Assembly: GCF_000622325.1 (NCBI RefSeq)
Contig: NZ_JASE01000002.1
Span: 62,001-126,000 of the forward strand
Direction: 5' to 3'
DNA length: 64,000 nucleotides
Source of the DNA: Sulfitobacter geojensis
GTDB lineage: Bacteria > Pseudomonadota > Alphaproteobacteria > Rhodobacterales > Rhodobacteraceae
Below, piece by piece: positions 14,933 to 31,906 of this stretch (the stretch's first letter is position 1; each line of letters begins with the position of its first letter). The notes beneath the pieces were generated by a model that searched no databases, was not told the origin of the DNA, and saw only the letters and a program-made list of their open reading frames with translations. A program made the position numbers and the translations under genes.

Positions 14933-15871
14933 ATGGCCCGTTCCCGCACGCCCAAATTCGATGCCTCCGAGGTCATCACAAACGAAATCATCCGCATCAT
15001 CGAGCGCGGCGTCCTGCCGTGGCGCAAGCCATGGACCGCAGGTGGCAGCTCTCGTCCACTGCGCGTGGGCGGAGAACCCTACCAGGGAGTGAACAACTTC
15101 CTGCTGACTATGCGCACCGTGATGGCGGGCCATAGCTCACCTTTCTGGATGACGCTGCCGCAAGCCAATGCGTTGGACGCAAAGGTTCGCAAGGGCGAGA
15201 AGTCCTCTGTCGTCGTTTACTACGGTCAAAGCCGGAGGGACGCCGGCGATGAGGATGACCGCAGCGACGGGGATGATCGCTCCGAGGAGGCCCGCGTCTT
15301 CCGCTTCCAGAAATCCTACCGCGTGTTCAACGCCTGCCAGATCGAGGGCTTGCCCGACAGTTTCTACCCCGACCCGGAGCCAGCGCCCGAGTATCCGCCG
15401 TCCGAGCCCATCCCGCACATGCAGGCGTTTTTCGATGCCATCGACATCACGACCGTCTTCACAGGAACAGAAGCGTACTATTTGCCGCCCGTGGACAAGG
15501 TCTACATGCCGTCCATCACGCGGTTCCAGGACCCGCGCAACTTCTACGGGGTCTGGGCCCATGAGCTGGCCCATGCCACGAAAGCCCCCCATCGACTGAA
15601 CCGTGATTTCGGGTTCTCGAAGTTTGGCAACACGTCCTATGCGCGCGAGGAGATCGTCGCGGAATTGACCTCGGTGTTCCTGGGGCAGACACTCGGCTTC
15701 ACGGCGCATACGCTCGAGATGAATGCTGCCTACCTCCACAACTGGTTGCGCGTCCTTCGGTCGGACAAGGGCGCGATCTTCCGCCACGCCGCCGATGCGC
15801 AGCGCGCCTGTGACTACCTGATCGCCAGATCGGAGGCGGGCAGGGTAGGGGAGGGCGCTCGGGCCGCTTGA
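14933..15871 (+). CDS. ardC: ArdC-like antirestriction / ssDNA-binding protein
   Basis: The 312-residue protein has the ArdC layout. An N-terminal ssDNA-binding domain (DUF1738 type) has PWRKPW near residue 30 and GVNNFLL. A zincin-like metallopeptidase domain has HELAH near residue 210 and EEIVAELTS about 25 residues later. ArdC coats incoming single-stranded DNA and protects it from restriction during conjugation. GGAGG precedes the ATG. It is the first of several plasmid-establishment genes read in the same direction. Confidence 0.9.
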   Translation: MARSRTPKFDASEVITNEIIRIIERGVLPWRKPWTAGGSSRPLRVGGEPYQGVNNFLLTMRTVMAGHSSPFWMTLPQANALDAKVRKGEKSSVVVYYGQSRRDAGDEDDRSDGDDRSEEARVFRFQKSYRVFNACQIEGLPDSFYPDPEPAPEYPPSEPIPHMQAFFDAIDITTVFTGTEAYYLPPVDKVYMPSITRFQDPRNFYGVWAHELAHATKAPHRLNRDFGFSKFGNTSYAREEIVAELTSVFLGQTLGFTAHTLEMNAAYLHNWLRVLRSDKGAIFRHAADAQRACDYLIARSEAGRVGEGARAA

Positions 15872-15917
15872 TTGCTCTGTTCTGCAGGAGCGCCTAACCC
15901 CTGTATGGGGCCTGTGG

Positions 15918-16558
15918 CTACACGTCGCTGCGTCGTACTAGCGCTAGGGCACATCCGAGGATGATGAGCAGGCCACCGCAGGTCCGGTCCAGCCACAGCG
16001 CGCCACGGTTACTCAGAAATTGTACCGCCTTTGCTCCTAGTCCAGCATAAATGGCCATCACAGCCACATCGACGGCGATAAAGACGAGTGCGAGCCGGGC
16101 ATATTGCATCAACAATGGTTCTGACGGGTTTAGGAACTGGGGCAGGAACGCGGTGAAAAACAGGTAGCCCTTGGGGTTCGTCACGGCGACCAGAAAACTC
16201 TTGCGAAACAGCGTCAGCCTGCGCGGGGATGCGCCCTTGCCTTGCCCGTTCTTTTGCCCGGGAACCGGCCCCATTTCCCCCGCGGACCGCAACATCTGAA
16301 CGCCAAGCCACACTAGATAGGCGACGCCTGCCCATTTCACGACGTTGAACAGAACCGCTGATGTGGCAAGAACGGCGCCCAACCCTAGACCGGCCGCGGC
16401 GATAAGGACCCCGTCGGAAAGGGCGGCGCCCATGATGCGGAAATTGCAGAGCCAATTCCAAACCGGGATCCGTTGGACAGGGCCAAAAGAACCGTCGGCC
16501 CGGGCGTCACCACGACCACCACGGCCAGCAAGGCGAAAGTCAAAAGCGAGATGTCCAT
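15918..16558 (-). pseudogene. LysE-family exporter, frameshifted
   Basis: The N-terminal part, from the ATG at 16558 (MDISLLTFALLAVVVVVTPG), and the C-terminal part, beginning RIMGAALSDGV, are in different frames. The break lies at about 16440-16446. A single missing base there would restore a typical roughly 213-residue LysE/RhtB amino-acid exporter with six membrane helices. The start overlaps the stop of the upstream DUF1772-like gene (TGATG), so it was the last gene of a three-gene membrane operon. Either a real mutation or a sequencing error explains the break. Confidence 0.85.
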
Positions 16559-17079
16559 CAGTCTGTCTCCGGGGTAAGGGCAAAAATGGCAAGGCCGGTC
16601 AGAAGCAGGGCAAAGCCACTGACAAGGGTTCTGAGCGTATTCCAGAATTGCCAGGGCGTGGAATAGACCTGCCATATGTCGGCAGCCGCGGCGCTGTCTG
16701 CCGGGACGGTTACTTGCGCCAGCGCTTCATTCATCGGCACGTTAACCATGGCAGTGACCAGCAGCGCCCCTGCGACGTAGATCACTGCACCTGCCAAAAA
16801 CAGGGCGGCTGCCCTGCACCTGTTCTGCCGGGCCGCGATGGCGGCGGTCAGAGCCAGAATGACGGGTGTCAGGAAGAACGCCGGAAAGAAGACGGGGTTG
16901 CGGACGGAGGCGTTCATCGCCTGCATCGCCGGGATGGCGACCCGGGGGTCGGCGGCATCGAGACCCCACATCGTCGAGCAGACCCAGGCATAGAAGAACC
17001 CGAAAATGGCGCCCATGCTCAGAAGCGAGAGCATCGACATCGGGACAAGAAGTCGGGCCATCAGGCCGGTCCGTCGCAT
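16558..17079 (-). CDS. DUF1772-like (anthrone oxygenase-like) membrane protein
   Basis: The 173-residue protein has four predicted membrane segments (about 10-35, 65-82, 90-110 and 145-167). The polar motif RNPVFFPAF between the first two is typical of DUF1772 proteins. The family includes small anthrone oxygenase-like proteins, but most members have no proven activity. It overlaps the upstream membrane gene by 19 bases and the LysE pseudogene by one or two, so the three are one operon under the divergent TetR. Confidence 0.65.
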   Translation of the reverse strand: MRRTGLMARLLVPMSMLSLLSMGAIFGFFYAWVCSTMWGLDAADPRVAIPAMQAMNASVRNPVFFPAFFLTPVILALTAAIAARQNRCRAAALFLAGAVIYVAGALLVTAMVNVPMNEALAQVTVPADSAAAADIWQVYSTPWQFWNTLRTLVSGFALLLTGLAIFALTPETD

Positions 17080-17468
17080 GGTGTGGCGGTCTTGTCCGTG
17101 CCATCTTCATGACGGGATGCACTCAGAACGCGGGCAAAGATCACGATCGCCGCGAGTTGGCCAAGGATCACGGCAGGCCAGATCAGGGCAAACTGCGCAT
17201 CGAAGTATTTCTGCGGCCCGAATGAGACCAGGGCCATTAGCGCCGCCATCACGCTCAGCCCGCGCCCGGTGGCGCTTGATAGCGGCTGCACGATCATCGC
17301 GGAGAGGGCGACGGACACCGAGGCGCCGAGAAAGGGGGCGATGCCGAACAGCGGCGTCGCCACAGGCGGGTGTGGCCTGATACCGGCATATAGCGCCGAT
17401 AGCATTATAGATTGCAGCAGGATCAAGGTTGTGAGCGCGGCCAGGGCCTGACGGTCATGATGGGTCAT
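17061..17468 (-). CDS. four-helix membrane protein of unknown function
   Basis: The ATG at 17468 follows GGAG by 7 bases; an ATG at 17480 is possible. The roughly 135-residue product has four hydrophobic segments (residues about 10-28, 38-60, 70-85 and 95-117) and a polar charged tail. No family was recognised. It is first in the operon facing the TetR gene, with the twin CGTAA/TTACG operators just upstream, so its expression is expected to be TetR-controlled. Confidence 0.65.
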   Translation of the reverse strand: MTHHDRQALAALTTLILLQSIMLSALYAGIRPHPPVATPLFGIAPFLGASVSVALSAMIVQPLSSATGRGLSVMAALMALVSFGPQKYFDAQFALIWPAVILGQLAAIVIFARVLSASRHEDGTDKTATPCDGPA

Positions 17469-17483
17469 GTCTTTCTCCAAAAG

Positions 17484-17499
17484 CGTAATTTAAGTTACG
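17484..17499. promoter_or_regulatory. TetR operator, copy 1
   Basis: CGTAA-6 bases-TTACG forms a palindrome between the divergent tetR and membrane-operon starts. An identical pair of arms follows at 17512-17527. Confidence 0.7.
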
Positions 17500-17511
17500 G
17501 TTGCGCATATC

Positions 17512-17527
17512 CGTAATAGCAGTTACG
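17512..17527. promoter_or_regulatory. TetR operator, copy 2
   Basis: This second CGTAA-6 bases-TTACG palindrome has its centre 28 bp from the first, so two repressor dimers could sit in a regular array over both promoters. Confidence 0.7.
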
Positions 17528-17554
17528 TTTGCTGTCAACACGCAGGAGACGAAA

Positions 17555-18151
17555 ATGCGCGAAGAAAAAAGATCGCTGCGGCGACAGCAGATCGAAGACG
17601 CCGCCTATGCAGTGCTGGAAGCAAAGGGCTACGGAGGCACGTCGATACTGGGCATCGCGAAACAGGCGCGGGCCTCGAACGAGACGCTCTACAACTGGTA
17701 TGGTGACAAGCGGGGCCTGTTTCAGGCGCTCGTCACGCGCAATGCGGAAGAGGTGAAAATGCACCTGGAAACCGAACTGGAGACCGATCACGACGCGATT
17801 TCCATTCTTGGCACGCTTGGACCTAAATTGCTGAACCTGCTCACCGGCGACAGGGCCGTTGCACTGAATCGTGCAGCGGCGGCGGATAGCAGTGGAGAAT
17901 TGGGCGCGACCCTTTCAAAGGCCGGGCGGGAGGCGGTTTTCCCACTGCTCGAGCGGGTGCTTCTGCGCGCCCGGGATGAAGGGACGCTCATCTTCGACGA
18001 TACCGGAGAGGCCGTGGCGCTTTATCTCGATTTGCTGATAGGCGACCAGCAGATCAGGCGCGTCATCGGCCGTCTTCCGCAGCCATCAAAAACCTTTTGT
18101 CAGGCGCGGTCCGAGCGGGCTGTCAGGCTCCTCCGCCAACTTCTCGGCTAA
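17555..18151 (+). CDS. TetR-family repressor
   Basis: The ATG at 17555 has AGGAG 6-7 bases upstream; the longer frame to 17501 would run through the operator. The 198-residue protein has the TetR HTH in residues about 8-55 (RRQQIEDAAYAVLEAKGY, ETLYNWYGDKRGLFQALV) and a C-terminal ligand domain. It faces the three-gene membrane operon across two identical palindromes and most likely represses both sides. The ligand is unknown; an exporter in the operon suggests that a small toxic or amino compound is sensed. Confidence 0.88.
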   Translation: MREEKRSLRRQQIEDAAYAVLEAKGYGGTSILGIAKQARASNETLYNWYGDKRGLFQALVTRNAEEVKMHLETELETDHDAISILGTLGPKLLNLLTGDRAVALNRAAAADSSGELGATLSKAGREAVFPLLERVLLRARDEGTLIFDDTGEAVALYLDLLIGDQQIRRVIGRLPQPSKTFCQARSERAVRLLRQLLG

Positions 18152-18179
18152 ATTCAAAACTACCAAAGGAATTCAAAAC

Positions 18180-18482
18180 ATGACGACCCTTCTCGCGCCC
18201 AATGCTTGCAAGACCATGACCGATCTCCGCGCGCAAATAGACGCGATCGATGTAGACCTCATTGGCCTGCTGGTCACCAGAAGCCGCTATATCGACCGCG
18301 CCGTGGATCTCAAGAAGATCGAAGGCTTGCCGGCGCGCACAACGGATCGGGTGGCTGAGGTGCTCGACAAGGTCAGCTCAACCGCGTTCGAACAGGGCCT
18401 GGATCCGAACCTCGCACGCAAGCTTTGGGCCGAACTGATCGAATGGTCGATTCAACGGGAAGTAAGGGAGCTTGGGGAATAG
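18180..18482 (+). CDS. chorismate mutase (AroQ fold), short
   Basis: The 100-residue protein matches the AroQ chorismate mutase domain: LRAQIDAIDVDLIGLLVTRSRYIDR near residues 16-45, with the active-site arginine and lysine in the LVTRS and VDLKK segments, then WAELIEW near the end. It would turn chorismate into prephenate; the related isochorismate pyruvate lyases share the fold. It follows tetR by 28 bp on the same strand. A core aromatic amino acid enzyme on a plasmid is unusual and probably came with the tetR block. Confidence 0.8.
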   Translation: MTTLLAPNACKTMTDLRAQIDAIDVDLIGLLVTRSRYIDRAVDLKKIEGLPARTTDRVAEVLDKVSSTAFEQGLDPNLARKLWAELIEWSIQREVRELGE

Positions 18483-18525
18483 TGCGATTCCGCAAGACAA
18501 AGGGCGCAGTTGGTGGGGCGGACCT

Positions 18526-18930
18526 ATGAAGTTTATTCGCAATATCAGAGCCGCCGGGAAATTTCACAGGGCGGCGAATTCAATGCAGGCAGGAGATTAC
18601 TCGGCCGTTCTGGACCGCCTGGACGGGTTCCAAGCGCAACCATATTTCTTGGCTAAGGCGGAACTTTTTCGTGCAATGGCGCGGCATCGGCAGGACAGGT
18701 TTGCGGAAGCGGTTCACCACTATGACATCTTCCTGACGAACCATCTCGCGGACATGCCGCCAAAGGACCGTGTCTATGTGGAAGAGTACGCGAAATTTTT
18801 CAGAAGTCGTGCTCAAGCGAAGATTGATCCGTCAACGCCATTGTATTCATCGCTTGAAGAATTGAGAAAGCTTGCAGAAAACGCGCCGTTTCTCACCCGC
18901 GCCGAGTTTACGGCACTTGACGGTAAATAG
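18526..18930 (+). CDS. hypothetical TPR-like helical protein
   Basis: The ATG at 18526 (MKFIRNIRAAGKF) is preferred; the frame opens at 18472 inside the end of the chorismate mutase gene. The roughly 134-residue product is alpha-helical with a tetratricopeptide-like pattern (YFLAKAELFRAMARHRQDRFAEAVHHYDIFL). It has no signal peptide or membrane helix. No family was recognised. It lies 43 bp after the chorismate mutase gene. Confidence 0.55.
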   Translation: MKFIRNIRAAGKFHRAANSMQAGDYSAVLDRLDGFQAQPYFLAKAELFRAMARHRQDRFAEAVHHYDIFLTNHLADMPPKDRVYVEEYAKFFRSRAQAKIDPSTPLYSSLEELRKLAENAPFLTRAEFTALDGK

Positions 18931-19020
18931 GGACGAAGCGCGCGAACCATGGGGGGAGAGTCTTTTGGCGGCTTGCGGCCTCCTCGATGTCATCCTCCGA
19001 ATCTGACAGCACTGTGTGCA

Positions 19021-19650
19021 TCAGGATTCGCTCTCGTACAGGGGTGGAGCTGTTAACCTGAGGATTATCTGGTAAAGATAGTGCAACGCCACGGGCAACA
19101 GCGAGAGGGTTAGCACGCTGCTGTTCAGAGGCGCTTCAACCGCCAAGAGCGTTTCGTTGGTTGCGATGATCAATATGGCGATCAAAGCGTTGAGCTTGAG
19201 CAAGTGGCGGCGAAGCATTGGGGATACCCTTGCCTTATCGGACACGGGGACAGTGTGGTTCAGAACGTCCCGGTTACCCCAGACACCAAACGCCATCGTC
19301 AGTGCGTACCAACCGCAATAAATGCTAACCAACCGCTGGCAAAGCCAGGGCTCGGACCACCAGACCTGAACCGAAAGGACCGCGAAACTGGCGGCAATCG
19401 CCCAACTGGTGGCTTGGCGTGCGCGCCCAAATACGTGGCGTTGGCGCCGAATAGTAACTGGCAGAACCGCCCAAAGATGTGCTGCCTGTGCAAGCACCGC
19501 TGCCCAGACAAAGGCTTCGGAGTCCGGCAGGCCCACGGCCTTAAGAGTGGTCCAGATGCCGGCAAGAACCGCCGGCATAAGCAATCGCCCCGGTGAGGGT
19601 GGCGGCATATTCCGAAAAAGGAGTGATATGAACGGGAAAACGTAGCGCAT
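19021..19650 (-). CDS. hypothetical polytopic membrane protein
   Basis: Start taken at the ATG at 19650 (MRYVFPFISLLFRN); an ATG at 19707 is also in frame. The roughly 209-residue product has five or six hydrophobic segments with polar loops rich in R. No family was recognised. It is read against the surrounding genes and stands alone. The last residues, YESES, are acidic. Function unknown. Confidence 0.5.
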   Translation of the reverse strand: MRYVFPFISLLFRNMPPPSPGRLLMPAVLAGIWTTLKAVGLPDSEAFVWAAVLAQAAHLWAVLPVTIRRQRHVFGRARQATSWAIAASFAVLSVQVWWSEPWLCQRLVSIYCGWYALTMAFGVWGNRDVLNHTVPVSDKARVSPMLRRHLLKLNALIAILIIATNETLLAVEAPLNSSVLTLSLLPVALHYLYQIILRLTAPPLYESES

Positions 19651-19868
19651 TGGATTACCGGAAACCGCGTTAGCAAACTTATGCGGCAAGATTTTGGCGG
19701 TGGCCAAAATGTCAGGGTTTGTGGGTTTGGTTTCTAACGGGATTTCGAGTAGCTTGAGTAAGAAGCGGGCATTTGATGAGCCAGACGCGAATTAACGTAG
19801 TCCAACAGTTGCCGACCGTAGGTCTGTTTGGCTGAGGGTGTTTCGCTCCCTGACATCTCCACCAATCT

Positions 19869-19888
19869 GAAAAGTTAAAGCGGGCTTT
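19869..19888. repeat. conserved leader element, copy 1
   Basis: CTGAAAAG, two variable bases, then AAAGCGGGCTTT lies 35 bases before the DUF3768 start. The same element precedes the genes at 26903 and 31287. Confidence 0.6.
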
Positions 19889-19923
19889 GGGAAGGGTGTT
19901 TCAACTTCTCAAAGGAGATCCCT

Positions 19924-20313
19924 ATGTCCATGAATGTTCAACCCCAGCCAGACCGTGCAGATCCGAGTGTGATCGCGGCGCAGAACGATGCGTTTCGCAA
20001 GCTTGCGTGCCTTGGAGTGCCGCCCGCGCGGCCCATCCAGAGCCGCATGCATGTCACCCGCGCGCTTATGGAGGCCGGTGACGGCTTCATGGCCGAGGCG
20101 GTGAAGGCAACCGGTGCGTTCGATACATTCGAGCCTGAGAATGATCCCGAGGGATGGCACGATTTCGGGGCGGTCGAGATCCGGGGTGAGACCGTGTTCT
20201 GGAAACTGGATTTGTACGAAGCGGGTTCGGAGTTTCGCTACGGGGCTGAGACCCCAGACAATCCCGCCACCACCATGCGTGTGCTGACCATCATGATGGC
20301 GCGCGACTGGTAG
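19924..20313 (+). CDS. DUF3768 protein
   Basis: The 129-residue soluble protein has the DUF3768 pattern: LNDAFR-like NDAFRKLAC near residue 22, ALMEAGDGF, FDTFEPENDP and WHDFGAVEI...FWKLDLYEAG. It ends TTMRVLTIMMARDW. The family is common on alphaproteobacterial conjugative plasmids and has no known activity. AAGGAG precedes the ATG. It begins the long conserved module that continues with the ParB-like gene, but an IS110 element now separates the two. Confidence 0.8.
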   Translation: MSMNVQPQPDRADPSVIAAQNDAFRKLACLGVPPARPIQSRMHVTRALMEAGDGFMAEAVKATGAFDTFEPENDPEGWHDFGAVEIRGETVFWKLDLYEAGSEFRYGAETPDNPATTMRVLTIMMARDW

Positions 20314-20529: not shown

Positions 20530-21561
20530 ATGAATGTATTTATCGGACTGGATGTATCTCTGGCAAGCACGGCGATTTGTGTGCTGGGGCCGCAGGGGAT
20601 TATTGTTGAAGAATTGCAGGCGGAGAGCGAGCCTGAAGCCCTGGTGCGCGCGATCGTCGCCCTGCCATATTCGATCGACACGATCGGTCTCGAAGCTGGA
20701 CCTCTGTCCCAATGGCTGAGCAAGGGGATGGAAGAGGCAGGGTTTGACGTGGTCATGATGGAAACACGGTTGGTGAAGGCCGCCTTGAAGGCCATGCCGA
20801 TCAAAACAGACCGGCGCGATGCTCAGGGCATTGCGCGCTTGCTTCAATTGGGGTGGTACAGACCCGTGCACCGCAAATCCGTGTCCTCCCAGGAAATCCG
20901 TGCGTTGCTGGCTGCAAGAAAATCAGTTCAACAGGCGATCATCAACCTTGAGCTTTCCATGCGGGGTGTTTTGCGGAACTTCGGCTTGAAGCTGGGGCAT
21001 GTCACCCGGATCAGGTACGAGGCCCGGGTAAGGGAACTGGTTGAGCAGAATGAAATCCTGTCCACGTCGACGGAGGCTCTTCTGCGCGCGCGTTCGCAGT
21101 TGCGTGCCGAGTTGGCCGAATTGGATGCGAAGATCGCGGGTCTGGCAAAACACGACAACGTTTGTCGTCTGATGATGACGATGCCGGGTGTCGGTCCGAT
21201 CGTCGCCCTGACGGTCAAATCTGCGATTGATGATCCAGCCCGCTTTGCACGGTCGAAGGATGTTGGTCCGTGGGCAGGGCTGACGCCAAGGCGCACGCAA
21301 TCCGGAGAGATGGACATCGTTGGGCAGATCACCCGAGCTGGCGACCGAGGCCTTCGTACAGCCTTATATCAAGCGGCAATGATCCTGATGCACCGTGGGT
21401 CACCAAACTGGCTCCAGGCCTGGGCACTCAGAGTGGCTCATAGGCGTGGATCGAAACGGGCCTTGATTGCACTCGCTCGGCGCATTGGCGTTATTTTGCA
21501 CCGTATGTGGCGGGACGGCACACCATTCCGCTATGCGCAGAGCTCCCTGGCAACAGTCTGA
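20530..21561 (+). CDS. IS110-family transposase (first copy)
   Basis: The 343-residue DEDD recombinase has MNVFIGLDVSLAST at the N-terminus, KTDRRDAQGIARL near residue 97-110 and a C-terminal Tnp20 domain with MMTMPGVGPIVALT and AGLTPRRTQSGEMD. A catalytic serine is expected in the Tnp20 part. IS110 elements use a structured bridge RNA from a noncoding end to choose donor and target. AAGGGC precedes the ATG. The gene is intact and interrupts the DUF3768 to ParB-like operon. Element ends were not resolved. Confidence 0.92.
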   Translation: MNVFIGLDVSLASTAICVLGPQGIIVEELQAESEPEALVRAIVALPYSIDTIGLEAGPLSQWLSKGMEEAGFDVVMMETRLVKAALKAMPIKTDRRDAQGIARLLQLGWYRPVHRKSVSSQEIRALLAARKSVQQAIINLELSMRGVLRNFGLKLGHVTRIRYEARVRELVEQNEILSTSTEALLRARSQLRAELAELDAKIAGLAKHDNVCRLMMTMPGVGPIVALTVKSAIDDPARFARSKDVGPWAGLTPRRTQSGEMDIVGQITRAGDRGLRTALYQAAMILMHRGSPNWLQAWALRVAHRRGSKRALIALARRIGVILHRMWRDGTPFRYAQSSLATV

Positions 21562-22028: not shown

Positions 22029-24011
22029 ATGACCACAAGCTTCAAACCCGTATCCGTCGCTATTGGCGATCTGACTGCCCACCCCGCCAATGTGCGCAGC
22101 AACGCGCCGGAAACCTACGACCCCGAGAACATCGCCCATCTGAAAGCCAGCATCGCTGTTCTGGGTCTCCTGCAGCCGCTCCTGGTCCAGAAGCTCGACG
22201 GCAAATACGCTGTCCTCGCCGGTGGCCGACGCCATGCAGCCCTGAAGGAGCTGGTCGCCGACAAGGCCGCGAAGGGGTTCACCGCGAAGACCAAGGTCGA
22301 CTGCCGCCTTGTGCCGGAGAAGTGCGACGTCACCACGGCGCTGTCGCTCGCCGAGAACATCACCCAGGCACCGATGAACGCAATCGACGAGTTCGAGGCT
22401 TTCGCGCGGATGATGGAGGTCGATGGCCAGACGCCTGAGACCATCGCAATGACTTTCGGCACGACCGTTGCCGCCGTGAAAGGCCGGTTGCGCTACGGGC
22501 TGATCCACCCCGATATCCGCGCCGCGGCCCGGGCGAAGACGATCACGCTCGACACGATGAAGGCCTTTGCCGAGCACCCGAGCCAGGAGGTTCAGCGCGA
22601 GGTCTACGAGGCGCTCACCAAGGAAGACAGCTATCTGCAGGCCTATACCGTCCGGCAAGCGCTCAAATCCCGCGGCGTGCAGGTCAGCGACGATATCGGA
22701 GCCTTCGTGCGCGCGGACTACGAGGCCCTCGGCGGTGCTGTCGCGGCTGACCTTCTGGAAGAGCATTCCGTGCTCGAGGATGCAGCACTGGTCGAGACCA
22801 TCTTGCTCGAGAAGCTCGGTGCCGCTGCCGAAGAGGCCCGTATGAGGCTGGGCTTCGCCTGGGCCGATGCGATGGTGCGCTATGATTACGCGACCATGGC
22901 CGACTATGGCCGCGTCTATCCCGGCCCGATCGTGCCGGATGCATCCGCCCAGAAGCGCATCGATGAGATCACTGCCGAGCTTGATAAACTGCAGCTCCAG
23001 ATGGAGGATGAGGGGCTCGAGGACGGTGCCTACAATGCCCTTTACGAGCGCGTGGACGCTCTGGAAGAGGAAGCCCGCGATCTGCAGGAGGCTTACAGCA
23101 CCGAGGACCTCGCGCGGTCCGGGGTGATCGCGTCGTGGCAGGGTGGGCAGATCACGCTCCATGTTGGTCTCGTCCGCCCGGAAGACACCGTGAAAGAGGA
23201 GGGCGCGCGCGGCTCTTCGGCTAGCCCGACCGGGGAAGAGGCCCCGGACGCCGGCGAAATCACCTATCCAGCCTCACTGGCCGAGGACCTCAAGACCGAG
23301 CGGGCCATGGCCCTTGGCGCCGCGATGGCGCTGCATCCGGAAGCCACGCTCGATCTGACGCTCTTCAAGCTGGTGAGCGACGTTCTGGCCAGCGGCATGA
23401 GTGTCACGCAGGCGATCAAGATCGATGCCCGCAAGGAATACCGCAACCACGCCAAGATGGACGAGATTGACGAGACCTCCCTCGCGCAGGTGGCCGCGGC
23501 GCATGATGTGCTGGACCTCTCGTGGCTCGATGATACCCGCCCGCCCGCCGATCAGTTCGCGGCGTTTCGCGCGCTCGAAGCAGGGGAGAAGGCCAAGCTC
23601 GTCGCCTATGCCACGGCCAGCACCACGCAGTCCTGCTTCGCGCGGGACCGCCAGCGCGACAGCCTGATGCATGCGTTCGAGATCGAGATCATGCCCGATA
23701 TCCGCGCGCATTGGACGCCGAACGCGGCGCTCTTCAATCGCTTCAAAAAGGCATGGCTCCTGAAGATCCTCGGCGAGGATCTGGGTCTGGCCCAGGAGGC
23801 GGTGACGCTGGCCTCGTCGAGCAAGAAGGAGATCGTCGCCTTCTGCGACAAGCTCTTTGCAGAGCCGTTCGCCACACTCACGGACGCGCAGCGCGCTGCC
23901 GTAGCCGCCTGGTGTCCGCCGATGATGCAGACCGCCGGTGTCGTCTGTGATGAGGCGGAGCCCGCCTCGGAATCTCCCGAGCCTGACAGCGAGGTCGCGC
24001 AAGCGGCCTGA
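22029..24011 (+). CDS. ParB-like nuclease-domain protein, large
   Basis: The 660-residue protein has a ParB/Srx N-terminal domain in residues about 5-120 (VAIGDLTAHPANVRSN, YAVLAGGRRHAAL, LSLAENITQAPMNAIDEF) and a ParB HTH region (ETIAMTFGTTVAAVKGRL). A long helical C-terminus with a coiled-coil stretch (ITAELDKLQLQMEDEGLED) follows. It is not part of repABC and has no ParA partner nearby, so partition is unlikely. Such orphan ParB-like proteins are standard on Rhodobacterales conjugative plasmids, and some relatives act as nucleases or ardB-linked establishment factors. It is the first gene after the IS110 element. Confidence 0.85.
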   Translation: MTTSFKPVSVAIGDLTAHPANVRSNAPETYDPENIAHLKASIAVLGLLQPLLVQKLDGKYAVLAGGRRHAALKELVADKAAKGFTAKTKVDCRLVPEKCDVTTALSLAENITQAPMNAIDEFEAFARMMEVDGQTPETIAMTFGTTVAAVKGRLRYGLIHPDIRAAARAKTITLDTMKAFAEHPSQEVQREVYEALTKEDSYLQAYTVRQALKSRGVQVSDDIGAFVRADYEALGGAVAADLLEEHSVLEDAALVETILLEKLGAAAEEARMRLGFAWADAMVRYDYATMADYGRVYPGPIVPDASAQKRIDEITAELDKLQLQMEDEGLEDGAYNALYERVDALEEEARDLQEAYSTEDLARSGVIASWQGGQITLHVGLVRPEDTVKEEGARGSSASPTGEEAPDAGEITYPASLAEDLKTERAMALGAAMALHPEATLDLTLFKLVSDVLASGMSVTQAIKIDARKEYRNHAKMDEIDETSLAQVAAAHDVLDLSWLDDTRPPADQFAAFRALEAGEKAKLVAYATASTTQSCFARDRQRDSLMHAFEIEIMPDIRAHWTPNAALFNRFKKAWLLKILGEDLGLAQEAVTLASSSKKEIVAFCDKLFAEPFATLTDAQRAAVAAWCPPMMQTAGVVCDEAEPASESPEPDSEVAQAA

Positions 24012-24779: not shown

Positions 24780-25433
24780 ATGGGATGGCTCTTCTATACC
24801 GATCGCCGCGTCCAGACCTACGCGGATGAGAAAGCGGAGATTGCCCGGCTCTGCACCTTCGAGAGCGACAGGCGCAAGACGGAACTGGTCAAAGCCTGCA
24901 AGGTGGGTTCGACTTGGTACGCGGCGGCAAAGGTCACAAGTATCGATGGCTCGCCGGTCGAGGACACGACCTGTGTGACCGATGCGGATGGCTCCATCAC
25001 GTTCGGTGCTGTCTTCCTCACCCGATACGATGACGGCTGCTGGGGCTACAAGGACATGGAGGAAAGTGCTGGCCCGAACGAGTCTCGTGCTCCCCTTGGG
25101 CTGATCGAGCTCCTCTCCGACCTGAAAGACCCGGACAGCTATGCTCATGCCTGGCGCCAGCGCTGCCAGGACTGGGCTGCGATCCCGGACTACGAGGAAG
25201 GCGACAAGATCAGGCTCGCAGCACCTGTGACGCTCACCGATGGCAGTACCTGCCAGATTGTCACCGCGACCCACTACACGCGCGGGCGGCAAAAGCGCCG
25301 CTGCTACCGCATCGAGGAAACTGGTGGGCTCGTACGCCTGTCGAAGGCCTCGCTTGCGGGTTCGGAGCTGCTCAGCTCCGCGAAAGGTGCGGCTAGCCCG
25401 GTGCTGGCGGAGTTCCTGGCGGGGCGAAATTAG
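24780..25433 (+). CDS. DUF6927-like plasmid protein
   Basis: The 217-residue protein starts MGWLFYTDRRVQTYADEKAEI, a conserved opening of plasmid proteins I associate with DUF6927. A middle part contains TRYDDGCWGYKDMEES, conserved in proteins from the same plasmid module, and a basic C-terminus includes TRGRQKRRCYRI. It is soluble. It is the third gene of the module after the IS110 element. Function unknown. Confidence 0.6.
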   Translation: MGWLFYTDRRVQTYADEKAEIARLCTFESDRRKTELVKACKVGSTWYAAAKVTSIDGSPVEDTTCVTDADGSITFGAVFLTRYDDGCWGYKDMEESAGPNESRAPLGLIELLSDLKDPDSYAHAWRQRCQDWAAIPDYEEGDKIRLAAPVTLTDGSTCQIVTATHYTRGRQKRRCYRIEETGGLVRLSKASLAGSELLSSAKGAASPVLAEFLAGRN

Positions 25434-25557: not shown

Positions 25558-25884
25558 ATGACAGCCCTCGCACAAGATGTCTCGAAACTCACGGATCGGT
25601 ATCAGACGACCGTGCCGGCGGGTGTGCGCAAACAGCTCAAGCTGGGCAAGGGCGACCAGATTCGTTACTGCACCGAGCCGAGTGGCAGGGTCTATATCGA
25701 GCCCGTGCGCAGCGACGAGGAAGATCCCGTGCTCGGAGCCTTTCTCGATTTTGTCGAGGCCGATATCAAGGCGCATCCGGACCGCATTCGGGCGTTCGAT
25801 GGGGCTTTGCATGACCGTCTTGCAGCACTGGTCGGAGACGTTGACGTCGATCTCGATGCGCCGCTATCGCTCGAGGATGAATGA
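25558..25884 (+). CDS. prlF: PrlF (SohA)-family antitoxin
   Basis: The 108-residue protein has an AbrB/SpoVT-like swapped-hairpin DNA-binding domain (KLTDRYQTTVPAGVRKQL, GDQIRYCTEPSGRVYIEPV) and an acidic C-terminus (DVDVDLDAPLSLEDE) that binds the toxin. It overlaps yhaV by four bases (ATGA). PrlF neutralises the YhaV ribonuclease and represses the operon. Start supported by AGGAG upstream. Confidence 0.9.
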   Translation: MTALAQDVSKLTDRYQTTVPAGVRKQLKLGKGDQIRYCTEPSGRVYIEPVRSDEEDPVLGAFLDFVEADIKAHPDRIRAFDGALHDRLAALVGDVDVDLDAPLSLEDE

Positions 25885-26399
25885 GCGGCGATAGCGTGCC
25901 CGCAGGGGCGCCCCTTGTCGTAAACGGATGGTCGATTTATGCGCATCCGCTCTTTCTGGATCAGCTCGAAGGGCTGACCCTGGAGGTCGAGGCGCGTAAG
26001 GCACGCGATCCTAAGACCTGGCGCAAGAAAAACCCGACGAAACGGCTGGCCGCCATCTTCAAGCTGGTCACCGAGGCCATACCGGCAGATCCGGGTGCCG
26101 CCGCCTTCCGGCAAGGCGGCACACTCGGCGATCACCGCAAGCACTGGTTCCGGGCGAAATTCTTCCAGCAGTATCGGCTGTTCTACCGGTTCAACAGCGA
26201 TGCGAAGGTCATCGTGCTGGCTTGGGTGAACGACGACAAGACCCTGCGCGCCTACGGCAGCAAGACGGATGCCTATGCGACGTTCAAAGGGATGCTGGAA
26301 GATGGAAATCCACCTGACAATTTCGACGCGCTCTTGAAAGAAGCTGCGGCGGCGGGCAAGCGGTTCGAAACTTCCCTTGAAGCGGTGCCCGATCGGTAA
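25881..26399 (+). CDS. yhaV: YhaV-family ribonuclease toxin
   Basis: The 172-residue protein has the YhaV pattern: NGWSIYAHPLFLDQLE, KNPTKRLAAIFKLV, the basic segment LGDHRKHWFRAKFFQQYRLFYR and ILAW-like VLAWVNDDKTLRAYGSKTDAY. It is a RelE-type ribosome-associated RNase. It overlaps the antitoxin start-to-stop, and sits between the DUF and methylase/helicase genes of the conserved module, where it would punish loss of the plasmid. Confidence 0.9.
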   Translation: MSGDSVPAGAPLVVNGWSIYAHPLFLDQLEGLTLEVEARKARDPKTWRKKNPTKRLAAIFKLVTEAIPADPGAAAFRQGGTLGDHRKHWFRAKFFQQYRLFYRFNSDAKVIVLAWVNDDKTLRAYGSKTDAYATFKGMLEDGNPPDNFDALLKEAAAAGKRFETSLEAVPDR

Positions 26400-26493: not shown

Positions 26494-26658
26494 ATGATTG
26501 AGGCAGAAAAGGATAGGCAGCACCTCGGGCTAGAGGAGCAATGCGCGCCTGACCTGACGGGGCACCGTTTCCCAATTGCTGTGCACGTTGCAGACATGCC
26601 CGATGACCTCGACAAGCTGCTGGATATCGGGCTCGAGGAGCATTTCCGTGGCGGCTGA
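26494..26658 (+). CDS. small acidic protein of unknown function
   Basis: A 54-codon frame starts at an ATG preceded by GGAG at an 8-9-base distance. The product is rich in D and E, with PDDLDKLLDIGLEE at the C-terminal half. It ends after the start of the next small gene (GTG at 26648), giving an 11-base overlap, so the two are probably translated together. No family was recognised. Confidence 0.5.
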   Translation: MIEAEKDRQHLGLEEQCAPDLTGHRFPIAVHVADMPDDLDKLLDIGLEEHFRGG

Positions 26659-26800
26659 TGTCAATTCGTATGACGCCTGGTTTTGCGCGCAGGTACAGGC
26701 CGCGCTGGAGGAGGAATGCACGGGAACATCTCAGGTTCAGGTGATGCAGGCCGCACAGGCATTGATTGATGCGAAACGGGAGGTCGAACCCAAGTCCTGA
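26648..26800 (+). CDS. small antitoxin-like protein (RelB/StbD-type), orphan
   Basis: A GTG start 7 bases after GAGGAG gives a 50-residue product with SYDAWFCAQVQAALEEE near the N-terminus and VMQAAQALIDAKREV. The YDAWF...VQAAL pattern is typical of short plasmid stability antitoxins whose partner is a ParE/RelE toxin. No toxin gene follows; the next gene is the methylase/helicase. It may be a remnant, an anti-addiction protein or a pair with the small acidic protein upstream. It fits none of the frames longer than 60 residues. Confidence 0.45.
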   Translation: MAADVNSYDAWFCAQVQAALEEECTGTSQVQVMQAAQALIDAKREVEPKS

Positions 26801-26841: not shown

Positions 26842-26861
26842 GAAAAGCGAAAGCGGGCTTT
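26842..26861. repeat. conserved leader element, copy 2
   Basis: CTGAAAAG, CG, AAAGCGGGCTTT followed by TTTGTCC lies 41 bases before the methylase/helicase start. AAAAGC and GCTTTT can pair as a terminator-like hairpin. Confidence 0.6.
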
Positions 26862-26902
26862 TTGTCCTTTGGAACTCAGACCCTGATCCAAAGGAAACCC
26901 CC

Positions 26903-29900
26903 ATGTCCAAGCCCAAACCGGCAAATCCGGCTCTCTCAATCTCCGACACTGACCTCGCCTCTGCCCTCGTGCAGATCGGTGCGGAGGTCGACCACCAACC
27001 CCTGCGCAGTTCAGCGCTGGCGCGCATCATGCGCGAGACGTTTCATGGCAGCGATGCCGGCGGTGCCTGGGACTGGCGCATGGCATATGACCTTATGCAG
27101 GCCGCGGCTGTCCAGGTGCTGCTGCGTGGGGACGGCGCGGCAGGTGACATCGCCGCTGCAAAGCTGCTTGCCTCGCGGCTCCTGACGGAAACCCGCCGCT
27201 CCGAGCAGCAGATCCGGCTGCAGCAGTTTTCCACGCCGCTGCCATTTGCAGCGCTGGTCGTGCGGGCGGCGGCGATCCGCAAGCGCGAGACTGTGCTGGA
27301 GCCCTCGGCTGGCACCGGTGCCCTGGCTGCTTTCGCCGCACGGGCCGGTGCGACGCTTCTGCTCAATGAAATCGAACCCTTTCGCCAGCGCCTCCTGCGC
27401 GCGGTTTTCGGCGGCGAGGTGACGGGCCATGACGGCGAGCATATCGACGATCTGCTGCAGTCGCCGGTTCTACCCGACGTCGTGGTGATGAATCCGCCCT
27501 TCGCCTCCTCGGTCGATCGGTCGCGTGACAAGCACATCGCCGCCAAACATCTCGTCGCGGCTGCAAAGCGTCTGGCACCTGGCGGGCGGCTGGTGGCGAT
27601 CATGCCGCCGAGGTTCACGCCCGAACGCGATGCCGCGCATTGGTCACGCGCCTGCGGTCTCCTGACGCCGCGTTTGGCGTTGACGATGCCGGGGCAGGTC
27701 TACCGCAAGCTCGGCACCTCTGTGGAAACCCAGCTCATGATCTTCGACAAGATGCAGGAGGATGGCGAGATGATCCGCGCAAATGTCCGGGATCTGGATG
27801 AAGCCTTGGCATATGTCGACGCCGTGGCCGCGACCCGGACCGAGATGCGCCCCGTCCAACGGGTCGCGACGATCCCTCACAGGCGGCCGACCGTTCTATC
27901 CTCTGCTCCGCGCAAGACCGCCGCTGCGCCTGTCGCCGCCTCCAAGCCTCGGGCCAATGCCGTCCGCCCGCTAACTTTCACGAGTCTTGATATCCCGCGC
28001 GACAACACGCCCATCTCGGACATCTATGCGCGCTACCGTCCGCAGCGGGTCGAGATCGCGGGTGCGCAAGAACATCCTACGCCGCTCGTCGAGAGCATCG
28101 CCATGGCCTCGGTTGCCCCGCCCATGCCCTCAAACACGGGCAGTGATGACTTGCGCCTGCCCGCCCGGTTGATCGAGGAGGGACATCTCTCCGAGGCGCA
28201 GCTGGAAACCATCATCATGGCGCATGATGCCTATGGGCGCGACCTGCCCGGTCGGTTCACCATCGATGACGACCAGACCAAGCTGACGCGCGCCGATGAT
28301 GATCCAAACGCACGGGCCTATCGTCTCGGGTATTTCCTCGGCGACGGCACCGGTTGCGGCAAGGGCCGCGAATGCGCGGGGCTCATTCTCGTGAACTGGC
28401 TGGCCGGACGCAGAAAGGCGATCTGGGTCTCCAAATCCGCCACGCTCATCGAGGACGCGATCCGCGACTGGACCGATCTTGGCGGCTCGCCCGCCGACAT
28501 CCAGCCGCTCTCCAAATGGAAACCGGACCAGCCCGTCCCGATGGACGACGGCATCCTTTTTGTCACCTACGCCACGCTGCGGTCCGCGGGCAAATGCGGC
28601 ACCACGCGACTGCGCCAGATCCTCGACTGGATGGGCGCAGACTTTGAAGGCGTCCTCGCTTTTGATGAGGCCCATGCCATGCAGAACGCGGCCGGGTCCG
28701 AGCAGGGCAGGGGGGTCAAACCCTCCCAGCAGGGCCTTGCTGGCCTGCGGCTGCAACTGGCAGCACCCCGCGCCCGCGTCTTCTACATCTCGGCCACGGG
28801 TGCCACGAGCGTGCACAACCTCGCCTATGCCGCGCGGCTGGGGCTCTGGGGGCAGGGCCCCGAATATCCCTTCCCGAGCCGCGAGAGCTTTGTGTCGGCG
28901 ATGGAAGCCGGCGGTGTCGCCGCCATGGAGGTGGTCGCCCGCGATCTCAAGACGCTCGGGCTCTACACGGCCCGCGCCCTCAGCTTCGACGGCGTGGAGT
29001 ATGACGTGCTCGAACACGCGCTCACTCCGGCACAGATCGAGGTCTATGACGCCTACGCTGAAGCGTTTCAGACGATCCACCACAATCTCGAGGCTGCACT
29101 GACTGCGACTGGCGTCAACGATGCCTCGGGCGAGACCAATGCCTCGGCCGCACGCGCCTCGGCCAAGTCCCGCTTCGAAAGCACGAAGCAGCGCTTCTTC
29201 AACCACCTCCTGATGGGCATAAAAGCCCCGACCATCATCCGCGCGATCAAAAAAGATCTGGCGGCGGGCAAGGCTTGCGTCATCCAAGTTGTCTCGACGG
29301 GTGAGAGCCTGTTGAAGCGTCGGCTTGAGACGATGGACCCGGAGGATGAACTCGTTGAGGGAGCCTTGACGCCGCGCGACTATGTTCTGGGCTACCTCGA
29401 ACAGGCTTTCCCGATCCATGCCCAAAAGCTCGTGGAGATCGACGGCAACATGGTGGCGGAACCTTTGCGGGATGAGACCGGCGCGCTCGTTGTCTCGCGC
29501 GAGGCGCTCGCCCTGCGCGATGCGGCCATGATGGAGTTGATGACGCTGGCCCCGATCCCCTCGGCGCTCGACCAGATCCTCTGGGCCTTTGGCGACGAGG
29601 CCGTGGCAGAAGTCACGGGGCGGTCCATCCGGCCCCTCAAGGCCGAGGATGGTCATCTCTTCATCGAGAAGCGCGCCGCCAGCAGCAATTCATCCGAAAC
29701 CCAAGCCTTCATGGACGGCGAAAAGGATATCCTTATCTTCTCCGATGCGGGCGGTACGGGCCGGTCCTATCATGCGGCGCAAACGGCGAAGAATCAGAAA
29801 CGGCGGCGGCACTACCTGCTGGAGCCCGGCTGGCGCGCTGATGCGGCCATCCAGGGGCTCGGCCGCACGCATCGCTCTGCCCAGGTCAGCGCGCCTTTCT

Positions 29901-31165
29901 TCCGGGTCTGCACCTCGGATGTGCATGGCGAAAAGCGTTTCACCTCGACGATTGCCAAACGCCTCGACCAGTTGGGGGCCTTGACCAAGGGCCAGCGCGA
30001 GACCGGTTCGCAAGGCATGTTCCGCGAGGAGGACAATCTGGAAAGCCCGATCGCGCGGGCCGCGCTGCGTGGGTATTTCGCCGATCTTGCCGCCGGGCGC
30101 GCCGAGGCGATGAGCTACGAGAGCTTCACCGACTGGACGGCCCTGCGGCTGATCGACAAGGACGGGGTGCTCCTTGAGGAGCTTCCCCCGATCCAGCGGT
30201 TTCTCAACCGGGTTCTGGCCCTTCCCATCCACATGCAGAACGCGCTCTTTGCGGAGTTCATGCGCCGGATTGCCGATCAGACGGAACGGGCGCGCGCTGC
30301 GGGCACACTCGATCTCGGCGTCGAAACCCTGGGCGGCGAAAAGATCGAGCAGGTCTCCACGGAGGATCTCTGGACCTGCCCGAAATCCGGCGCCGTGACG
30401 CGGATCATCGGGCTGGAGGTGACCGACCCGGTCCACGTCCTCGGTGCCGAAGAGGCCCTCTCACGCAATCCCGACAAGCTGCCGATGGTCAATCGCGCCT
30501 CCGGTCGCGCGGCGCTCATCTCTGCGCGGCCCATGCAGATGTATGACGAGGACATTGTCACCCTGATGCGCAAGGCGGTGCGGCCCAATGGGTCCAGCTA
30601 TCTCGAGGAGACGCGGTTTGAGGCTTCAGCCTGGGAAAAGATCGGGAGGGCAGAGTTCACCCGGCTCTGGGATGACGAAGCCGCGTCCTTGCCAAAAACC
30701 AGCATGACGAAGCTCTACCTGCTGACCGGGCTGTTGCTGCCGATTTGGAAGGACATTCCGACCACAAATGAACGCATCTACCGGGTCACGCCCGACGGGG
30801 CGACCGCGATGATCGGGCGCACGCTGAGCGAGGAAGGGGCGGCAGCGTTGCGCGCCCGCTTCCTCGTCTCCAATCCGCAAACGCCACAGGAGATGTTGAC
30901 CGCCGCCCTCGGCACCACCGCACCTGTTGAGCTGGGCCGGGGTCTGACCCTGACCCGTCGCCGCGTCGCAGGCGAGATGCGCCTTGAGCTAAGCGGTGCG
31001 GATCGGGGCATGATTGAGGGTCTCAAGGCCATGGGGTGTTTCACCGAGATCATCGCCTTCCAGCTGCGGGTGTTCCTGCCGCATGGGGACGGGATCGACA
31101 CGGTCAGCATTCTGGCCCGGATCGTGGGGCAGGAAGCCGCCATGACGTCAGACCAAGCCGCCTGA
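26903..31165 (+). CDS. strawberry-notch-like methyltransferase-helicase (DarB-like)
   Basis: This 1420-residue protein has two parts. Residues about 85-300 form an adenine methyltransferase with LEPSAGTGALAAF and the catalytic NPPF. From about residue 430 there is an SF2 helicase of the strawberry-notch type: GYFLGDGTGCGKGRECAG (Walker A), LAFDEAHAMQNA (DEAH), SATGATSVHNLAYAARLG and a second RecA lobe with FSDAGGTGRSYHA and GLGRTHRSAQ. The layout recalls the phage P1 DarB antirestriction protein, which modifies incoming DNA. On the plasmid it probably protects transferred DNA against restriction, together with ArdC. AAGGAAA precedes the ATG. It appears intact. Confidence 0.85.
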   Translation: MSKPKPANPALSISDTDLASALVQIGAEVDHQPLRSSALARIMRETFHGSDAGGAWDWRMAYDLMQAAAVQVLLRGDGAAGDIAAAKLLASRLLTETRRSEQQIRLQQFSTPLPFAALVVRAAAIRKRETVLEPSAGTGALAAFAARAGATLLLNEIEPFRQRLLRAVFGGEVTGHDGEHIDDLLQSPVLPDVVVMNPPFASSVDRSRDKHIAAKHLVAAAKRLAPGGRLVAIMPPRFTPERDAAHWSRACGLLTPRLALTMPGQVYRKLGTSVETQLMIFDKMQEDGEMIRANVRDLDEALAYVDAVAATRTEMRPVQRVATIPHRRPTVLSSAPRKTAAAPVAASKPRANAVRPLTFTSLDIPRDNTPISDIYARYRPQRVEIAGAQEHPTPLVESIAMASVAPPMPSNTGSDDLRLPARLIEEGHLSEAQLETIIMAHDAYGRDLPGRFTIDDDQTKLTRADDDPNARAYRLGYFLGDGTGCGKGRECAGLILVNWLAGRRKAIWVSKSATLIEDAIRDWTDLGGSPADIQPLSKWKPDQPVPMDDGILFVTYATLRSAGKCGTTRLRQILDWMGADFEGVLAFDEAHAMQNAAGSEQGRGVKPSQQGLAGLRLQLAAPRARVFYISATGATSVHNLAYAARLGLWGQGPEYPFPSRESFVSAMEAGGVAAMEVVARDLKTLGLYTARALSFDGVEYDVLEHALTPAQIEVYDAYAEAFQTIHHNLEAALTATGVNDASGETNASAARASAKSRFESTKQRFFNHLLMGIKAPTIIRAIKKDLAAGKACVIQVVSTGESLLKRRLETMDPEDELVEGALTPRDYVLGYLEQAFPIHAQKLVEIDGNMVAEPLRDETGALVVSREALALRDAAMMELMTLAPIPSALDQILWAFGDEAVAEVTGRSIRPLKAEDGHLFIEKRAASSNSSETQAFMDGEKDILIFSDAGGTGRSYHAAQTAKNQKRRRHYLLEPGWRADAAIQGLGRTHRSAQVSAPFFRVCTSDVHGEKRFTSTIAKRLDQLGALTKGQRETGSQGMFREEDNLESPIARAALRGYFADLAAGRAEAMSYESFTDWTALRLIDKDGVLLEELPPIQRFLNRVLALPIHMQNALFAEFMRRIADQTERARAAGTLDLGVETLGGEKIEQVSTEDLWTCPKSGAVTRIIGLEVTDPVHVLGAEEALSRNPDKLPMVNRASGRAALISARPMQMYDEDIVTLMRKAVRPNGSSYLEETRFEASAWEKIGRAEFTRLWDDEAASLPKTSMTKLYLLTGLLLPIWKDIPTTNERIYRVTPDGATAMIGRTLSEEGAAALRARFLVSNPQTPQEMLTAALGTTAPVELGRGLTLTRRRVAGEMRLELSGADRGMIEGLKAMGCFTEIIAFQLRVFLPHGDGIDTVSILARIVGQEAAMTSDQAA

Positions 31166-31183
31166 AAAGCCAAAGCGGGCTTT
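31162..31183. repeat. conserved leader element, copy 3
   Basis: CTGAAAAG, CC, AAAGCGGGCTTT begins on the stop codon of the methylase/helicase gene and lies 103 bases before the next start. AAAGCC and GGCTTT pair exactly. Confidence 0.6.
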
Positions 31184-31286
31184 GGGTCGGGCGTCGCGGA
31201 TCGGGATTTGGCCGGTCTGCGCTTTCCGGGCGCGCGCTGACCAATGCGACGCCTGGCCCCCCAACTTCTGATAAGAGGACAGACCC

Positions 31287-31673
31287 ATGACCAATCCCCA
31301 GATCGACTATGCCGCAATGGCGGCTCAGTGGCGCGCCGAGCACGAAACCACCCTGAAAGCAACCCGAGCGGAACTGATCGTGCAATTGCGCGCGCTTGGC
31401 ATCAACGAGGTCACCGCCGAATACGAAGGCTATGGCGACTCCGGCAATGTCGAGGACGTGACTGTGCAGCCTGCGGAGGTCCAACTGCCGGAAGCGCTTG
31501 TCACCGCCGTGGGCGATTTCGCCTGGTCACTCGCCTATCACCATCATCCGGGGTTCGAGAACAACGAGGGCGGCTACGGCACGCTGACCTGGGACATTGC
31601 AGCAGACAGCATCACCCTCGATCACGCCGACCGCTACGTTGAATGCTCGCACAGCTATGACGAGGGGCTTTGA
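31287..31673 (+). CDS. DUF6878-like plasmid protein
   Basis: The 128-residue acidic protein starts MTNPQIDYAAMAAQW and contains VTAEYEGYGDSGNVEDV near residue 40, SLAYHHHPGFENNEGGYG near 75-92 and LDHADRYVECSHSYDEG at the end. This resembles DUF6878, recalled from plasmid annotations. AGAGGAC precedes the ATG. It is one base from the next gene and belongs to the same transcript. Function unknown. Confidence 0.65.
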   Translation: MTNPQIDYAAMAAQWRAEHETTLKATRAELIVQLRALGINEVTAEYEGYGDSGNVEDVTVQPAEVQLPEALVTAVGDFAWSLAYHHHPGFENNEGGYGTLTWDIAADSITLDHADRYVECSHSYDEGL

Positions 31674-31674
31674 T

Positions 31675-31906
31675 ATGGCTCACCCGCTTCATCATGCTGA
31701 AAGCTCTGCCGGCAAATTCGGCGGGGTGCCGTCTGACTATCAGTCCATACATGACTGGTTCGATGCCTCGAAAGAACACCTCGCCCTCTTCACGCACCGA
31801 GCCATGCGCCACCACGCTCAAGGCCTGTTCGAGGCGGAACGGGTTTTCGGCCTGACCCTGACCAATAGCGCGGGTCGGGACATTCCCGTGCGCTGGATCG
31901 GCGAGC
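31675..31906 (+). pseudogene. DUF6915-like gene truncated by IS3
   Basis: The first 77 codons (MAHPLHHAESSAGKFGG, DWFDASKEHLALFTHRA, ERVFGLTLTNSAGRDIPVRW) match the N-terminal half of DUF6915 plasmid proteins. At 31907 the reading frame enters the terminal repeat of the IS3 element and runs on in IS sequence to 31995. The missing C-terminal part is not found on the other side of the insertion, where IS66 lies, so sequence was also lost. It follows the DUF6878-like gene directly. Confidence 0.7.

Follow-up and report, generated by a model that had tools for sequence, protein, structure and literature searches.

We analysed a 64,000-nucleotide stretch of Sulfitobacter geojensis DNA (hereafter the window; bases 62001-126000 of a 193,669-base contig in a 4.2-Mb genome). 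A block of genes within it, running from the antirestriction gene ArdC (14933..15871) to a truncated DUF6915 gene (31675..31995), is probably a leading-region establishment island belonging to a family of roseobacter RepABC/MOBP/MPF-T conjugative plasmids. This interpretation is read from the sequence, namely from gene order, purifying selection, the linkage of a ParB-like gene to a methylase–helicase gene, a candidate nick motif and the strand bias of the plasmid backbone. The island is of an already known kind, with a new gene set and, possibly, a new regulatory element: a hairpin beside the island that may switch on its first gene. The block probably aids survival of the plasmid in a new host cell, and the presence of ArdC and a methylase suggests an anti-restriction role.

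The block is conserved in roseobacter RepABC plasmids

In PLSDB the window has its near relatives among the RepABC plasmids of roseobacters, which are typed MOBP/MPF-T. Eight near relatives, from Roseovarius, Sulfitobacter, Celeribacter, Paracoccus, Thioclava and Phaeobacter, share the order repABC, ArdC, DUF6330, DUF3768, ParB-like, DUF3085-like, DUF6927, PrlF/YhaV, methylase–helicase, DUF6878, DUF6915, DUF736, variable genes, DUF2493, a 68-residue protein gene, MobC, relaxase and VirD4. Departures from it are single plasmids with genes unannotated or replaced (DUF6927 is unannotated in L022 and ArdC in L024; the stretch of L019 stops before the relaxase and lacks DUF6330). At least 80% of the region 21.9-32.0 kb is contained in one place in 73 PLSDB records, and part of it in 231. 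Mean ratios of non-synonymous to synonymous substitution rates (dN/dS), taken against six to eight relatives, were 0.03-0.17 for 10 of the 12 module genes from ArdC to the truncated DUF6915, compared with 0.11 for the relaxase and 0.08 for VirD4. The two exceptions were small open reading frames, hyp1 (0.55, seven relatives) and hyp2 (0.38), on which purifying selection is weak. Given these shared records and the low dN/dS values, we regard the grouping as more than chance.

In the window the genes of the block all lie on the + strand. ArdC, with an ArdcN (single-stranded-DNA-binding) domain and an MPTase-PolyVal zincin domain by Pfam and HELAH at residue 210, is followed by DUF3768 (19924..20313), the ParB-like gene (22029..24011), the DUF3085-like gene (24084..24677), DUF6927 (24780..25433), a PrlF antitoxin and YhaV toxin pair (25558..26399), hyp1 and hyp2 (54 and 50 residues; 26494..26800), which also occur in relatives, the methylase–helicase fusion of 1420 residues (26903..31165), and DUF6878 (31287..31673), an acidic protein with 22 D+E and 5 K+R. 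Pfam bears out ArdC, DUF3768, ParB-like, DUF6927, the 1420-residue protein, DUF6878 and DUF6915 as named in the original prediction, which had missed the PrlF/YhaV pair, itself recognised by Pfam. The prediction had also placed these genes in one run, and this is true of the relatives but not of the window, where about 4 kb of cargo plus an IS110 element split the block and an insertion sequence (IS) truncates its last gene.

A candidate nick site would place the block on the leading side

The sequence TGGCAGGAWAT has a single match in the window (0.05 expected in 64 kb), TGGCAGGAAAT at 44392..44402 on the + strand, just upstream of the gene for a MobC-like helix-turn-helix relaxosome accessory protein (44457..45014, +) and of the MOBP relaxase gene (45001..47334, +). 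This VirD2/MOBP-like motif is complementary to the VirD2/RP4 nick region. Among 24 fragments lying upstream of relaxases with 28-96% identity to the window's own, 16 have the motif, each time on the relaxase strand, and it occurs even beside relaxases of only 28-58% identity. Indeed, from the corresponding region of a plasmid whose relaxase is 58% identical, blastn recovers only an 18-bp block around the motif (E 0.03). For MOBP plasmids a nick core ATCCTG and a consensus (C/T)ATCCTG(C/T) are given in PMC3772185; the latter is matched exactly by TATCCTGC in four distant fragments (L031, L033, L039 and L040).

Because the motif lies on the relaxase strand upstream of mobC, the opposite strand would be cut and the module would enter the recipient first. 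In an IncP plasmid carrying the RP4 origin of transfer (oriT) sequence the nick strand is likewise opposite traJ/traI. Taken together, nick polarity and this topology suggest a minus-strand cut between 44395 and 44394, such that the transferred strand (T-strand) would begin at 44394 and run to lower coordinates. The 68-residue protein gene, the methylase–helicase and ArdC would then lie 0.5, 13.2 and 28.5 kb from the nick, respectively, and the position in a leading region that had been proposed for the block is thereby supported. In seven relatives all 126 backbone coding sequences point towards oriT, compared with 23 of 48 cargo coding sequences (hand count, with our own assignment to the two classes); given the nick proposed here, the T-strand would be the coding template for all 126. 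Separately, a perfect 13-bp inverted repeat (44302-44386) flanks TTGACAG...TATATTAT before MobC, possibly a regulated promoter.

The ParB-like and methylase–helicase genes are linked across Alphaproteobacteria

The ParB-like protein has ParB_N and helix-turn-helix domains by Pfam, and in a profile comparison it scores far better against structures of Spo0J, Noc and ParB (E down to 3e-23) than against a ParB-like nuclease (2e-5). Its gene is flanked by the DUF3768 and DUF3085-like genes with no adjacent parA, and is thus the orphan that it had been taken for; in this it differs from ParB partition proteins, which have a cognate parA. The DUF3085-like protein has no Pfam match of its own; the label is fair because 3 of its 120 listed homologues carry PF11284 (DUF3085). 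The gene is under purifying selection (dN/dS 0.033), and a structure model predicts a Tudor/KOW-like barrel at the C-terminal end of the protein. According to PMC12826799, DUF3085 is the family most strongly enriched in broad-host-range plasmids of Enterobacterales.

In a sample of 100 genomes from the window's family, 46 rows matched the methylase–helicase, and the 22 near-full-length ones were kept (24 fragments or weak rows were dropped). The ParB-like gene was on the same contig in 21 of the 22, on the same strand in all 21 and upstream in 20. ArdC was found on 13 and a relaxase on 15 of these contigs, again always on the same strand, with the relaxase downstream of the methylase–helicase on 12 of the 15. 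In a second sample, of 190 genomes across the class (cut-offs E <= 1e-50 for the helicase and E <= 1e-40 for the ParB-like protein), the helicase occurred in 14 genomes and the ParB-like protein in 18, with 13 genomes having both (Fisher 2.6e-15), and each of the 12 full-length helicases, read by hand, was preceded within 15 kb by a ParB-like gene on the same strand. By annotation, the pair accompanies MOBP or MOBQ relaxases in plasmids of Sphingobium, Methylocystis, Caulobacter, Agrobacterium and Rhizobium; in Sphingobium one helicase lies ahead of its ParB-like gene. No ParB-like neighbour is annotated beside the helicase of Thioclava pLX01, Nostoc or Azospirillum in the stretch viewed. The two genes are thus linked across Alphaproteobacteria. 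On Sphingobium pCHQ1 (L011:1913-26136) both the ParB-like gene and the strawberry-notch protein occur twice within ~24 kb.

This linkage bears on a rival explanation, that the block is plasmid maintenance and regulation backbone in which a KorB/Noc-type ParB-like regulator and a PrlF/YhaV addiction pair sit next to oriT through mere backbone synteny. The match of the ParB-like profile to Spo0J, Noc and ParB structures, and more weakly to KorB, fits this view, as do the toxin–antitoxin pair and the maintenance of the block's genes by selection in established plasmids. Against it, the replicon already supplies its own RepA/RepB (repABC, 8379-11840), ArdC and adenine methylase–helicases have no known maintenance role, and the ParB-like gene is tied to the methylase–helicase in both MOBP and MOBQ plasmids and across the class. 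We therefore consider a maintenance backbone unlikely.

The fusion protein joins an adenine methylase to a strawberry-notch helicase

Pfam finds in the 1420-residue protein a methylase domain followed by AAA_34 and Helicase_C_4, the two strawberry-notch domains. The methylase motifs EPSAGTG (133) and NPPF (197) and the helicase motifs GDGTGCGKGR (480), DEAH (588), SATGAT (630) and GLGRTHR (985) are invariant or nearly so in 10 sequences that are 36-93% identical to the window copy, one of them cyanobacterial. Domains and motifs therefore agree with the proposed fusion of an NPPF adenine methyltransferase to a strawberry-notch helicase. The layout had also been likened to that of DarB of phage P1, which is right as to an N-terminal adenine methylase followed by a helicase-like ATPase, but not as to the type of helicase: DarB (2255 residues) has SNF2-rel_dom and Helicase_C Pfam domains and no strawberry-notch matches, and useful alignment of the two proteins is limited to 153 methylase residues (24% identity, E 0.002). 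A phage collection held no close full-length relative of the methylase–helicase (five records, each covering 14-20% of the query).

It could be argued that the methylase–helicase and its neighbours serve to fend off or exclude phages or competing plasmids instead of protecting the incoming plasmid itself. The methylase part does resemble PADLOC mad2 (E 1.8e-14, residues 103-287). However, among 10 module proteins scanned with PADLOC only this part and the ParB-like protein (best E 0.019) gave matches, and the domain searches identified no DNA nuclease among the conserved genes, making a defence role very improbable.

In some plasmids the gene is interrupted. In Dinoroseobacter shibae pDSHI01 (annotated sequence from strain DSM 112351) it is broken by three tyrosine recombinases and a helicase gene, and contigs of one genome that match in position pDSHI01 and the 126-kb D. 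shibae plasmid both have it split. Elements with such a recombinase trio interrupt the gene in two further plasmids. The breakpoints (L052, L053 and L054) fall at approximately residues 722-829, around the linker between the helicase lobes, and both halves remain open frames in L052 and L054. Plasmids pDSHI01 and pDSHI03 of D. shibae have been conjugated into Phaeobacter inhibens in the laboratory (PMC4886583).

A conserved hairpin precedes the first gene on the proposed leading side

On the proposed leading side, the identified gene closest to the nick encodes a 68-residue protein (43697..43903, +) that is weakly DUF736-like, below the Pfam cut-off. It is strongly conserved (dN/dS 0.006 and mean identity 99.8% over seven relatives) and identical to its counterpart on the Roseovarius AK1035 plasmid. 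Between it and the DUF2493 (YspA/SLOG) backbone gene (42231..43157, +) lies a structured element of 192 nt (43505..43696, +) with a core hairpin at 43584..43639 (+), 755-810 nt from the proposed nick. The element is present whole or in part in 168 PLSDB records, 149 of them typed conjugative, and in Celeribacter pP73B (L020) similarity upstream of the 68-residue protein gene begins near its edge. Across 20 distinct copies the 20 pairs of the stem hold in 96.5% of cells, a structure derived from the same sequences as those tested. Seven pairs have changed on both sides, which was matched by none of 500 shuffles, and controls with the structure slid along the alignment were 24-46% paired.

When 340 family genomes were searched with a covariance model of the hairpin, 53 of them gave 73 rows in all, one row being another's reverse strand; the model also matched 3 of the 190 class genomes, comprising the source genome, with one copy, and two others that were weak. 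Pattern matching gave 28 distinct cores, 27 of which have a start codon 51-54 nt downstream that opens a gene of the 68-residue type (66-73 residues, by reading). Of the 27 rows below 70 bits we inspected 20: two precede genes of that type at 51 nt, four precede genes for the single-stranded-DNA-binding protein SSB at 54-57 nt (one counted from an inner Met), and for the remaining 14 a script search found neither gene at the usual distance. Several weak copies lacking such a gene are on large, apparently chromosomal contigs (L135, L137, L141, L147, L148 and similar). In Phaeobacter piscinae pP13_g the hairpin stands 55 nt before an SSB gene, with DUF3768 and a ParB-like gene 3-4 kb away; in a Roseobacter denitrificans plasmid a DUF736 gene follows it at 49 nt. 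Nineteen copies share their contig (17 contigs in all) with a relaxase match, and 18 of them are on the relaxase strand. A weak model match in a Methylocystis plasmid (L013:7430-7492; E 0.001), 69 nt before a hypothetical gene, is a possible relative from outside the family.

We weigh two explanations of the hairpin, as a single-stranded-DNA promoter of the Frpo type or as an RNA leader, about equally. The hairpin could be the first example of a family of alphaproteobacterial promoters that are active on conjugative DNA in its single-stranded form and drive the first gene in the recipient, a proposal that we put forward tentatively and that is suggested by how the T-strand folds, by where the hairpin lies and by the presence of SSB among its targets. 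It is quite possible, if short of an even chance, that the hairpin is instead a leader in the mRNA of the 68-residue protein gene (SSB or DUF736 elsewhere), controlling translation. A leader is favoured by the copies located on large contigs, by the constant spacing between hairpin and start codon, and by the fold of the + strand RNA (z -4.5 against shuffles), in which the ribosome-binding region falls within the outer stem. In addition, a simple scan of 43158-44500 found no sigma-70-like site in the hairpin, the sole match being at 44314-44343. Arguing the other way, the fold of the T-strand as single-stranded DNA is more extreme (z -7.1), the hairpin lies 755-810 nt from the proposed nick, and SSB, beside which PMC11541004 describes Frpo, is among its recurrent targets. 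Neither a promoter nor a leader of this kind was described among the matches listed in the open-licence literature.

Evidence against an establishment island

Several observations weigh against an establishment island on the leading side. The nick sequence of the window, TTTCCTGC, has the core TTCCTG, one base off the MOBP core; no inverted repeat was found 5' of the proposed nick on the cut strand, the perfect 13-bp repeat lying on its other side. The motif is missing from 8 of the 24 upstream fragments and from Thioclava pLX01 (L010), a MOBP plasmid with mobC and relaxase inside the stretch; L009 has it with one mismatch, and one copy (L017) is inside a helicase gene. On 3 of the 15 family contigs the relaxase is downstream of the methylase–helicase only if the contig is circular, and the same-strand counts were mostly obtained on plasmids homologous to one another, which makes them non-independent. 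None of the eight near relatives has an annotated SSB gene in its stretch. The ParB-like protein and the toxin–antitoxin pair could serve maintenance instead. Finally, the methylase–helicase is probably not essential, because it is split in pDSHI01 and yet D. shibae plasmids of that name conjugate; the match to the conjugating plasmid is by name, the sequence being from DSM 112351.

Interruptions of the block and neighbouring genes

The cargo in the window (15918..19707) comprises LysE, anthrone-oxygenase-like, TetR and chorismate mutase genes; most relatives have DUF6330 here, and the four cargo genes are absent from the same place in their annotation. An IS110-family transposase (20530..21561, +; Pfam) further breaks up the module, and homology in DUF6915 (+) stops at 31905 beside an IS3-type transposase gene. 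IS3-, IS110- and IS66-type genes follow 31.9 kb (the IS66 label by inspection). A tblastn search with the genes of two Roseovarius plasmids found no match in the window to DUF6330, hyp3, DUF736, hyp4 or rhomboid, and showed the open reading frame preceding ArdC to be readable only across two frames.

Between repC and ArdC are a RES/Xre toxin–antitoxin pair (11958-12862, -) and a Fic protein (12893-14086, +; SoFic-like by PADLOC), and the gap that holds them varies among relatives. Past the VirD4-type coupling protein (47343..49343, +), as seen from oriT, are GajA and GajB of a Gabija system (56706-59921, -; PADLOC E 2e-213 and 2e-171). The same genome has a second gene with an ArdC-N domain (G000:C5:3018905-3019264).

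A model for establishment and comparison with known systems

These results suggest a model whereby the relaxase would cut the minus strand at the nick motif, so that the hairpin and 68-residue protein gene enter first, followed by DUF2493, the methylase–helicase, the toxin–antitoxin pair, the ParB-like gene and ArdC. The hairpin would most likely govern early expression of the first gene. ArdC would shield the incoming DNA from type I restriction, and the methylase–helicase may travel along the new duplex, methylating it. The ParB-like protein, presumably of the CTPase type, might bind plasmid DNA as a regulator or spreader, and PrlF/YhaV would stabilise the newly arrived plasmid. If the model is correct, roseobacter plasmids gain a defined leading region and a candidate nick site, the DUF3085-like, DUF6878, DUF6927 and DUF3768 proteins become conserved anti-defence candidates, and early expression acquires a putative switch that is open to testing in tractable laboratory strains. 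If the hairpin is a promoter, the 68-residue DUF736-like proteins would be functional analogues of SSB in zygotic induction.

Parts of this system have been described before. R388 ArdC is needed in recipients with HsdRMS (PMC7213743); the window protein matches its structures (6i89/6sna) at 3e-53 over nearly its whole length and has both the single-stranded-DNA-binding and the zincin domains, from which a like activity is predicted. The suggestion that the system is undescribed stands only in part, since PMC5512222 already discusses ArdC and, in plasmids and phages, strawberry-notch ATPases coupled to adenine methylases. The plasmid proteins described there have the same domain pair as ours, with methylase motifs and both strawberry-notch domains, although the portion of that paper available to us mentions neither a leading-region position nor a ParB-like partner.

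Leading-region anti-defence islands are reported in PMC11541004 from enterobacteria, Gram-positives and an insect metagenome, one of them with darB. Their gene sets and hairpin differ from those of the window, and the words ArdC, helicase, DUF and Alphaproteobacteria do not appear in the main text as available to us. As in those islands, an antirestriction gene, a methylase, a toxin–antitoxin pair and unknown genes lie on what appears to be the leading side, with the relaxase lagging, and all genes would be templated by the T-strand. The hairpin can likewise be compared with Frpo/ssi promoters, as described in the available parts of PMC11541004 and PMC12826799. Unlike these it has no recognised -35/-10, the likeness is one of fold and position and not of sequence comparison, and strong copies turned up in our searches only within the window's family. 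Like them, it appears to be a T-strand hairpin placed ahead of the first leading gene, and in other replicons hairpins of this type precede SSB.

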